Assembly: GCA_946478935.1 (NCBI GenBank)
Contig: CAMLEL010000036.1
Span: forward strand, 1-11,315
Length of the DNA: 11,315 nt
Direction of reading: 5' to 3'
Source: an uncultured Armatimonadota bacterium
Lineage (GTDB): Bacteria; Armatimonadota; Fimbriimonadia; Fimbriimonadales; Fimbriimonadaceae
Shown here: positions 9,416 to 11,205 of the stretch, piece by piece
Numbering within the stretch: the first letter of the stretch is position 1
Layout: each line of letters begins with the position of its first letter
The notes under the pieces: model-generated
Database searches by the model: none
Seen by the model: only the letters and a program-made list of their open reading frames with translations
Told to the model about the DNA's origin: nothing
Made by a program: the position numbers and the translations under genes

Positions 9416-10108
9416 GTGTATCGCGGCTTCCTGGCTCTATTATTGATTGGGTTCGTGCATTTGGCTCAGAGCCAATTGGCCGGAAAAACGATCTGCATCG
9501 ACCCCGGGCACCCCAGTGAAGTAGGTCGGGGAACGCGCGGTAAGAGCGTGACAGAACTGGAAGTCGTTTGGGAAATGGCGCTCTTGGTTAAGACGCGATT
9601 GGAAAAAATGGGCGCAAAGGTCGTCCTTACCAAGACTCACCGCGGTCAACTTGTGAAGAACCGCGATCGGGCAGAAATCGCGAACCGCGCCAAAGCGGAT
9701 TTGATGGTGAGGCTTCATTGCGATGCAGCAGCGGGAAGTGGTTTTGCCGTCTACTATCCAACTCAACAGGGCAAATCTCAGGGCGTCACCGGCCCCGCGC
9801 AAGATCTTCTCAAGATCCTGCCAGCAATTGCGGAGCGATTCCACTCGGAACTGGCGAAAGGCATGGTCGGCAAACTGAACGACCATGGCCTCAAATCAGA
9901 TTTGAAGACTGCGGTCGGGTCCCGGCAAGGAGCGCTCACCGGATCGATTTTCTCGAAAGTGCCGGTTGTTTTGGTGGAATTAGTAGTGCTGACCAATCCC
10001 AAGGACGAGGCGTTTATTGCTTCAGCAAAAGGAAAAACGCATTATGCCGGCGCGTTGGTCAGAGCGATTGTGGCCGCCGTTGGCAAATCTGCGAATTCCC
10101 GGCTATAA
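9416..10108 (+). CDS. Exported N-acetylmuramoyl-L-alanine amidase (Amidase_3 family)
   Basis: A zinc amidase that cuts the bond between N-acetylmuramic acid and L-alanine in peptidoglycan. The 230-residue product is a signal peptide (YRGFLALLLIGFVHLAQS, about 2-19) plus one catalytic domain with no visible wall-binding module. Family motifs: KTICIDPGHPSE with zinc ligand H32, TELEV with E48 or E50, LVKTRLEKMGAKVVLTKTH, RAEIANRAKADLMVRLHCD with zinc ligand H101, and PVVLVELVVLTNPKDEAFI with the catalytic glutamate E188. The RLHCD variant replaces the common S-hydrophobic-HAN/D. The start is GTG at 9416, with GGAG only 2 nt upstream, which is too close for a good ribosome site; no better start exists. 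It lies 18 bp behind glpX. Its last codons contain the promoter of the next transcript. Confidence 0.93.
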   Translation: MYRGFLALLLIGFVHLAQSQLAGKTICIDPGHPSEVGRGTRGKSVTELEVVWEMALLVKTRLEKMGAKVVLTKTHRGQLVKNRDRAEIANRAKADLMVRLHCDAAAGSGFAVYYPTQQGKSQGVTGPAQDLLKILPAIAERFHSELAKGMVGKLNDHGLKSDLKTAVGSRQGALTGSIFSKVPVVLVELVVLTNPKDEAFIASAKGKTHYAGALVRAIVAAVGKSANSRL

Positions 10109-10109
10109 T
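10080..10109 (+). promoter_or_regulatory. Sigma-70-type promoter of the B12-riboswitch leader
   Basis: TTGGCA (10080-10085) and a perfect TATAAT (10104-10109) are separated by 18 bp. Transcription would start near 10116, just at the 5' edge of the riboswitch fold. The promoter lies in the final codons of the amidase gene, and the -10 box contains that gene's TAA stop. The position relative to the riboswitch makes this the best-supported promoter in the window. Confidence 0.65.
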
Positions 10110-10115
10110 CACCTC

Positions 10116-10280
10116 GATTGCAGAGGTCGGCCCATCGTGGGCTGGCTGAAAGACGGGGAAAGTCCGGTGAAAACCCGGCGCTGTGCCGCAACGGTATTGG
10201 GATTGCGGACTGAAGCTTTAAGTTCAGAGAACTCCTTGTGCGGGGTTCCTGGGTGAAAGCTCAAGTCCAGATGGTTCCAG
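10116..10280 (+). ncRNA. Cobalamin (vitamin B12) riboswitch
   Basis: The core at 10155-10196 follows the cobalamin aptamer consensus in order: GGGGAA, CCGGTGAAAACCCGG (P5 arms 10164-10167 and 10175-10178), CGCTGTGCCGCAACGGTA. Upstream, GGTC (10125-10128) leads into a P3-like hairpin (GCCCA/TGGGC, 10130-10142) and CTGAAAGAC, as expected. Downstream a CTGAA...TTCAG hairpin is followed by CCTGGGTGAAAGC (10248-10260), resembling the usual GGGAAGGC, and AAGTCCAGA (10263-10271), resembling the AGTCxGGA box. The very end (TGGTTCC) departs from the usual ACCTGCC, so the closing helix is not clear. These RNAs normally repress B12 uptake, synthesis or B12-independent isozyme genes; here the next gene encodes a prepilin-like protein. 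RNase P RNA was considered because of GGAAAGTCCGG and rejected. Confidence 0.85.
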
Positions 10281-10434
10281 AGCCCGAATGCCCGCTTTGC
10301 AAGCGTCTTGTGAAGTCGTCGCCTACGAGCATAGGTGGTCAGGCAAGGGCAGCCCCGCACCCGAACCTTTCCCAAACTCCGACCGATGGCCTCACCCGTC
10401 CGCTCCGGCATACCGGGGCCGCAGGGAGGTTCAT
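10281..10434 (+). promoter_or_regulatory. Leader between riboswitch and prepilin gene; probable expression platform
   Basis: This 154-nt GC-rich stretch has no convincing gene and no T-run, so a transcription terminator is unlikely. It holds short hairpins (CGCTT/AAGCG near 10282-10294; CGCCTA/TAGGTG near 10320-10337) and, just before the ribosome site, GCTCCGG/CCGGGGC (10402-10408, 10413-10419, loop CATA). The Shine-Dalgarno AGGGAGG (10423-10429) lies 3 nt after that hairpin. CCTC at 10390-10393 could pair with its GAGG. Control of translation by hiding the ribosome site is the likeliest mechanism, but this is inference. Confidence 0.4.
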
Positions 10435-11205
10435 ATGCCAAATAAATCGATTCAAAGGGCTTTCACCCTCATCGAACTCCTCGTCGTCATTGCCATCATC
10501 GCCATCTTGGCGGCGATTCTCTTTCCCGTCTTCGCACAGGCAAAGGAGGCGGCCAAGAAGACTCAATCCATCAGCAATCTCAAGCAACTCAGCCTAGCTT
10601 GGCTGATGTACACGACGGACTATGACGACGTATGCATGCGCGTCAAATCAGACGGGCCAAACAAGATCTATTACTTTTGGGGAAGCTTCGATGGCACGAC
10701 GCTGCGTGAGGAGGAAGGGCTTCTCTATCCCTACACTCGCAACAAAGGGGTGCAAGCAGACCCATCGCTACCAACCACGCTGCGAACGGCGCTTGGCTTT
10801 ACCGGGTACGGATACAACTATGCCTACCTAAGCCCCAGCGACTTCATTCCTCCGACATGGGAAGAATCACCGCGCCCGGTTTCCTATTCGGCGATCGGTC
10901 AAGTCGCAGAAACCGTCGCATTTGGAAGCTGCGCCCGGCTGAACAACTGGGCTTATACGGCGCCGACGCTGGAAGGCAATGCCTACCTGGAGCCGCCGAC
11001 TTCGGATTTTCCAAGTTTCCAAGGTCGTCACTCGGGCATGGGCATCGTTGCTTGGGCCGATGGCCATGCCAAAGCTCGCAAGCCGACGATGCGTACGGGT
11101 GCTTTTGGCTACGGATTTAATGGCGCTGACTTTACTCCTCACCGACTCGGTGACATCGACCAAGACGGAGACTTCTCAACCAACGAACTCTTCGATCTGC
11201 AGTAG
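10435..11205 (+). CDS. Prepilin-like protein with H-x9-DG signature and C-terminal EF-hand loop
   Basis: The ATG at 10435 has a good Shine-Dalgarno (AGGGAGG, 10423-10429). An open frame reaches back to 10288, but those 49 codons lie in the leader RNA and would destroy the prepilin leader. The 256-residue product begins MPNKSIQRAFTLIELLVV, with cleavage predicted between A9 and F10, E14 at +5, and a hydrophobic helix ending in FPVFAQAK. RHSGMGIVAWADGHAK near the C-terminus gives H199-x9-D209-G210, the full family signature. The end carries DIDQDGDFSTNE (240-251): D240, D242, D244, G245 and E251 occupy positions 1, 3, 5, 6 and 12 of a canonical EF-hand calcium loop. The leader and helix from A9 to K37 are identical to those of the other prepilin-like protein in this window; the rest has diverged. 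The upstream cobalamin riboswitch suggests B12 control. Function unknown; a membrane-anchored, externally exposed or pilus-like component is inferred. Confidence 0.92.
   Translation: MPNKSIQRAFTLIELLVVIAIIAILAAILFPVFAQAKEAAKKTQSISNLKQLSLAWLMYTTDYDDVCMRVKSDGPNKIYYFWGSFDGTTLREEEGLLYPYTRNKGVQADPSLPTTLRTALGFTGYGYNYAYLSPSDFIPPTWEESPRPVSYSAIGQVAETVAFGSCARLNNWAYTAPTLEGNAYLEPPTSDFPSFQGRHSGMGIVAWADGHAKARKPTMRTGAFGYGFNGADFTPHRLGDIDQDGDFSTNELFDLQ

Follow-up and report, generated by a model that had tools for sequence, protein, structure and literature searches.

A cobalamin (vitamin B12) riboswitch directly precedes a gene for a prepilin-like protein in the 11,315-nucleotide (nt) stretch of DNA analyzed here (the window), which comes from an uncultured Armatimonadota bacterium (contig CAMLEL010000036.1). 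The identity of the riboswitch and its pairing with the prepilin are, in our assessment, practically certain. An earlier note had described this single locus; the system spans many species of the phylum. We propose that the pilin is repressed by B12 and takes a direct part in the capture of B12 at the cell surface, a reading to which we assign a probability of roughly 0.6. A broader statement, namely that the pilin contributes in one way or another to B12 acquisition, seems likelier still, and we hold it with good confidence. The elements of the locus are as follows.

10080..10109, + strand: sigma-70-like promoter, TTGGCA-18-TATAAT (consensus scan, 11/12 matches).
10106..10313, + strand: cobalamin riboswitch aptamer with an insert of ~81 nt in the variable arm (RF00174 and model R1).
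10315..10321, + strand: element A, GUCGUCG, able to pair with 10384-10390 (duplex prediction, weak statistics).
10321..10336, + strand: P13-L13-like hairpin GCCUA-CGAGCA-UAGGU; the loop is conserved among relatives and the stem covaries.
10384..10393, + strand: element B, CGAUGGCCUC; the anti-Shine-Dalgarno sequence is 10388-10393 and overlaps the partner of element A.
10424..10429, + strand: Shine-Dalgarno (SD) sequence GGGAGG; the local fold pairs 10426-10431 with 10388-10393.
10435..11205, + strand: riboswitch-linked prepilin of 256 amino acids, with an A^FTLIELLVV motif and a GYGYN, PP, RH and W-DGH signature.
11226..11258, + strand: 11-bp inverted repeat (11226-11236 / 11248-11258) without a T run, read directly in the sequence.

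The earlier note had recognized a cobalamin aptamer and named the Rfam model RF00174 as its test. By itself the window falls short of that model's gathering score of 31.5 bits, matching at 10106-10313 with 28.8 bits (E = 3.4 × 10−4), which may be because of the ~81-nt insert in the variable arm. A covariance model (R1) built from 38 relatives in the class, the window excluded, matches positions 10106-10336 with 100.6 bits (E = 6.4 × 10−21). Among nine orthologues of the window prepilin (L001 to L009; 61-73% identity), all seven of L001-L007 have a cobalamin riboswitch over the cut-off directly before the gene (four RF00174, three RF01689); the riboswitch of L009 is also above it (33.4 bits) and that of L008 below it (32.3 of 36.5 bits). 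The aptamer is thus borne out by R1 and by eight of the nine orthologues over the Rfam cut-off. In an alignment of 38 sequences (A3), 14 of the 26 predicted pairs change on both sides, and the core columns are invariant. Four loci (L154, L156, L190, and L191) contain short repeats such as AAATCC or CAGCAATC inside the variable aptamer arm, suggesting that this arm may expand by repeats.

We surveyed 113 genomes of the class of the relative G003, which we took as Fimbriimonadia. RF00174 matched 89 of them at an E value of 0.01 or better, in 96 places that were all inspected, and 76 of these places directly precede a prepilin (74 by a motif script, which had overlooked the motif or start of the other two, L147 and L167). 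In the class, 6 to 280 nt separate the riboswitch from the prepilin (135 nt in L150, for which the listed 980 belongs to a further prepilin), leaving too little room for a B12 gene. Across the phylum, class included, 250 of 291 genomes have a match at the same threshold. Outside the class, 67 to 70 of 97 inspected places precede a prepilin, depending on the rule applied, in a convenience sample of 57 places with loci and 40 chosen from a high-scoring list (4 further places without loci were excluded). Ten class genomes hold 39 to 103 N_methyl genes each, an estimated 1 to 3% of genes; the pairing is therefore far beyond chance, and the prepilin as a random neighbor is rejected by this base rate and by the tree described below. 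The pairing that the earlier note wanted sought in related genomes thus recurs, and no orthologous locus with an intervening B12 gene was encountered. For the window itself, the note's statement that no gene separates riboswitch and prepilin holds. Its leader length of 154 nt does not: we measured 121 nt from the aptamer end to the ATG, or 98 nt if counting starts after the P13 hairpin, and this gap is too short for another gene.

The linked prepilins form one dedicated family. We built a hidden Markov model (HMM) from the C-terminal parts of the riboswitch-linked prepilins of the class and applied it to sequences outside its training set. Linked prepilins from outside the class scored a median of 137.5 bits, with 69 of 70 at 78 bits or more (the remaining one, L245, at 18 bits, is probably not a family member), and 118 prepilins without a riboswitch had a median score of 22 bits and reached at most 104. 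In a quick maximum-likelihood tree of 51 linked prepilins (a random 50 plus the window) and 40 of the 118 unlinked ones, the nine closest included, the linked prepilins made up one side of a branch (SH-aLRT, 98). A genome search with a C-terminal alignment (A4) found 80 class members at 120 bits or more, a line set after viewing the list, in which scores continue at 118, 116, and 114 bits. A riboswitch lies just upstream of 75 of the 80, and of none of the eight members inspected between 103 and 118 bits. The unlinked strong members in G116, G168, G009, and G141 all lie at contig ends, and G116 and G141 are the only ones among the 24 class genomes without a riboswitch match to hold a strong member. 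One genome (G090) has two family members and two riboswitches, one before each. Conservation in the family extends along the entire protein, with GYGYN, PP, RH, and DGH signatures.

The window prepilin matches N_methyl (PF07963) with 34.4 bits (cut-off, 21.2), TIGR02532 with 32.8 bits (cut-off, 16.3), and DUF1559 with 25.2 bits, and its named database matches are labeled mostly Armatimonadetes, Fimbriimonas, or Fimbriimonadaceae. It has a long N-terminal helix and a pilin-like globular domain, and its fold aligns with PulG, EpsG, and type IV pilins; all 13 rows of the structure comparison (VIA-align 2) are pilins or pseudopilins. A search for a B12-binding fold in the pilin with Foldseek gave no match under an E value of 0.001, and an absent row excludes nothing. 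A plasmid origin was considered and dropped, as tblastn of the pilin against plasmids gave no match.

The leader between aptamer and gene points to translational control. A scan of the + strand found no terminator-like site in the window leader, and terminator-based control was rejected on that ground. GGCCUC at 10388-10393 pairs with GAGGUU at 10426-10431 (anti-SD with SD), and in 53 of 72 leaders the leader's own upstream stretch paired with the SD better than the median of the others' stretches (P = 8 × 10−5 by a sign test that takes the leaders as independent, relatedness not being removed). The missing terminator together with the SD-pairing hairpin makes translational control likely, in support of what the earlier note had suggested, and repression by B12 at translation would be the natural reading. 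Relatives share a hairpin after the aptamer, at the place of P13-L13, with a loop that is mostly CGAGCA, and both partners of a stem pair are changed in as many as 13 of 38 sequences. A hairpin with a CGAGCA-type loop occurs in 55 of 73 leaders, a count that is not independent evidence because the search picked hairpins by their stems. An L5-L13 kissing loop is described for cobalamin riboswitches in the available part of PMC9600662. Pairing of 10315-10321 with 10384-10390, weakly predicted, would compete with the SD–anti-SD hairpin. One subgroup (L121-L133 except L130, plus L287 and L288) has canonical aptamers of 78 to 92 bits before the same pilin family and a different SD hairpin, CCCACATAG..CTATGTGGAGGG; some of its leaders carry GCACGGACAGGAATGTCCGTGC-type repeats between riboswitch and pilin.

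Several features of the class link the pilin to B12. The Pfam model PF14717 finds six DUF4465 proteins in the 113 genomes (G090, G091, G100, G128, G149, and G150), and each of the six genes immediately follows a riboswitch-linked prepilin in the same orientation (in-house profiles placed DUF4465 at 8 of 76 class loci; the stricter Pfam figure was adopted). Published DUF4465 proteins bind B12, as reported in the part of PMC13398666 available to us. With iterated profiles, any partner family was found within 4.5 kb at 23 of the 76 loci in the class and at 16 of the 70 outside it, versus 1 of 117 unlinked prepilins. The seeds had been taken from riboswitch loci, and the sequence extended 2.2 kb downstream at 45 of the 76 class loci and at 27 of the 70 others. 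At some loci the proteins behind the prepilin look secreted, several with PEP-CTERM tails. The corrin-ring enzyme CbiC was found in none of the 113 genomes, the MetH activation domain in 83, and the FecCD permease in 107, so that the class seems to need imported B12. A TonB receptor plug domain occurs in 39 genomes and a secretin in 110; 52 of the 75 genomes with a riboswitch-prepilin pair show no plug, among them three that are each essentially one contig (G119, G100, and G085). As the genomes are partly incomplete, the absences of plug, CbiC, and FecCD are tendencies. The idea of B12 capture by the pilin, raised in the earlier note, gains support from the DUF4465 partners, the missing CbiC, and the few TonB receptors; the findings weigh neither for nor against its other suggestion, contact with B12-supplying partners.

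These results suggest the following course of events. When cobalamin is abundant, it would bind the nascent leader RNA, whereupon aptamer loop L5 would dock with L13, the loop of the 10321-10336 hairpin. The downstream RNA would fold so that the SD pairs with the anti-SD at 10388-10393, leaving the pilin untranslated; when B12 is scarce, the pilin gene would be translated. A prepilin peptidase would cleave the product, which would be built into a type IV pilus-like or pseudopilus fiber at the cell surface. This fiber would help to capture B12 for a BtuC-type transporter in the inner membrane, the pilin acting by itself or, in certain species, together with secreted B12-binding proteins encoded beside it (DUF4465 and others). 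What was computed is the riboswitch, its position, the pairing with one dedicated pilin family, the SD hairpin, and the partners; around these we infer repression by B12, the L5-L13 contact, assembly of the prepilin into a fiber, and B12 capture. The pilin itself may bind B12. A further step, which we regard as doubtful, would be a TonB-independent, pilus-based B12 route in which the pilin, produced only under B12 shortage, binds corrinoids or carries bound ones and pulls them through a secretin toward the inner-membrane transporter, much as competence pili take up DNA. If this were true, the pilus route would stand in for BtuB where these bacteria lack TonB receptors.

A number of observations weigh against the proposed role. 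The RF00174 score of the window lies under the cut-off, as noted above, and no known B12-binding domain was found in the pilin (Pfam gave only N_methyl and DUF1559, and NCBIfam gave no domain of this kind). The pairing of elements A and B is weak (own mean, −9.1 kcal/mol; cross-dealt mean, −8.1 kcal/mol; 51 leaders), and the whole-leader fold of the window is not unusual (z = −1.66). Most class loci have no known B12 partner behind the pilin, DUF4465 occurring in only 6 of the 113 genomes, and 23 of the 75 riboswitch-prepilin genomes do carry a TonB plug. The window ends 110 nt 3′ of the prepilin gene, cutting off the view of its operon. The strong family member of G171 lies on a contig that continues for 20 kb, and no riboswitch was found within 700 nt before its gene; its leader holds GCACGGACAGGAATGTCCGTGC-type repeats and the riboswitch of the genome lies at the end of another contig, so the separation may be a false join at the repeats or may be real.

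Weighing likewise against it, 20 of the 96 class places have no detected prepilin behind the riboswitch. Eight of the riboswitches (L139, L144, L151, L160, L162, L181, L188, and L200) precede secreted propeller-like proteins, perhaps a local counterpart of BtuG; several of these proteins bear PEP-CTERM tails. Two (L149 in G095 and L193 in G098) lie directly before the genome's main FecCD permease, which suggests that FecCD is BtuC. Others precede a TonB-dependent receptor with a Plug match (L130) or another secreted protein (L145), stand beside a small open reading frame (ORF) (L148 and L186), or lie near contig ends (L126, L127, L132, and L197), and L205 is a doubtful match of 19 bits. One riboswitch below the cut-off (L088 in G008:C8; 29.4 bits) precedes the small chain of ribonucleotide reductase, a classic B12-independent isozyme target.

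We considered four other explanations. The pilin could be a dedicated component of a type II secretion-like pseudopilus for the export of B12-binding surface proteins, without itself touching B12. Its fold, which aligns with PulG and EpsG in addition to type IV pilins, the secretins in 110 of 113 genomes, and the secreted look of the partners, several with PEP-CTERM tails, would fit this, as would the 39 to 103 prepilins per genome, as if many had one cargo each. However, partners stand near only 23 of 76 class loci (many of them with under 2.2 kb of downstream sequence), and 6 of 113 genomes hold DUF4465. This sparseness suggests that the constant component is the pilin rather than the cargo; we consider an export role unlikely. 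Slightly less probable again is that low B12 switches on a pilus attaching the cell to B12-producing neighbors, the capture of free B12 not being its job. Pilins commonly act in attachment, and the absence of CbiC from the class fits this reading too, but the genes behind the pilin include B12-linked secreted proteins, one of them of a family published as binding B12 (in the accessible part of PMC13398666), and these point to a molecule rather than a partner cell.

The remaining two explanations would deny the pilin any role of its own. Were it a mere leader cistron, the regulated gene would lie further downstream, and some loci do have B12-linked secreted genes behind the pilin; yet the next long ORF is on the opposite strand in L001, L003, and L005, and the family is conserved over its full length, so we hold this very improbable. 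The loss of an intervening B12 gene in the window, which would make the pairing a meaningless local accident, has nothing in its favor except the window score just under the RF00174 cut-off. Against it stand the orthologues over the cut-off and the recurrence of the pairing inside and outside the class while the flanking genes differ (L001, L003, L005, L006, and L008); this conservation leads us to reject a local deletion as scarcely credible. Direct B12 capture by a B12-repressed pilin remains our preferred reading.

Elsewhere in the window, the promoter proposed in the earlier note reappeared in the consensus scan, and the 3′ end of an amidase ORF (9416-10108) overlaps it. The inverted repeat past the prepilin stop codon is a possible transcript end. 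A second prepilin (6904-7692, minus strand) is followed at once by a PepSY_TM protein (5836-6903), as though the two formed another nutrient-linked pair; the Rfam scan of the window showed no riboswitch there. A wider role of prepilins through this PepSY neighbor was set aside, as loci of at least 5 kb showed no PepSY relative at an E value of 10−10. Positions 2974-5847 encode a fusion of a guanylate cyclase domain with a STAND-like ATPase region and TPR repeats. A subthreshold Rfam match to Plastid-ycf2 (7828-7901, + strand) is the complement of a tRNA-Asn gene and was discarded as an artifact.

Cobalamin riboswitches are among the best-known RNA switches, their usual targets being transport, synthesis, and B12-independent enzymes. 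In the open-access literature searched, we found no description of a cobalamin riboswitch before a pilin, nor do the accessible parts of PMC11477304 and PMC3543383 describe one. The commonest cobalamin riboswitch target seen here, in one phylum, is a pilin family for which we found no description. It offers a testable entry to the role of the prepilins that these bacteria carry by the dozen in each genome and to B12 import in bacteria without TonB receptors.

The system resembles the known cobalamin riboswitches RF00174 and RF01689 in its aptamer core, the P13-L13-like hairpin in the expression platform, its position before a gene, and likely repression; it differs in that its commonest target is a pilin rather than transport, synthesis, or a B12-independent enzyme. 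The pilin shares the prepilin motif, the long N-terminal helix, and the fold with type IV pilins and type II secretion pseudopilins (PilA4, PulG, and EpsG) but, unlike them, has its own family signature and a B12 riboswitch. A riboswitch before pilin genes has a parallel in Clostridioides difficile, where a c-di-GMP-II riboswitch stands in front of a pilin operon (according to the part of PMC11477304 available); the ligand, RNA class, host, and purpose are different. In Bacteroides, the surface proteins BtuG, BtuH, and BtuJ (DUF4465) are encoded in riboswitch-regulated loci and raise B12 capture, as stated in the available parts of PMC13398666 and PMC8941943. The loci described here are like these in their cobalamin riboswitch control, judged by computed position, and in the DUF4465 genes directly behind the pilin in six class genomes. 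The Bacteroides loci, however, also encode BtuB, whereas here the pilin is the constant part and 74 of the 113 genomes show no TonB plug.
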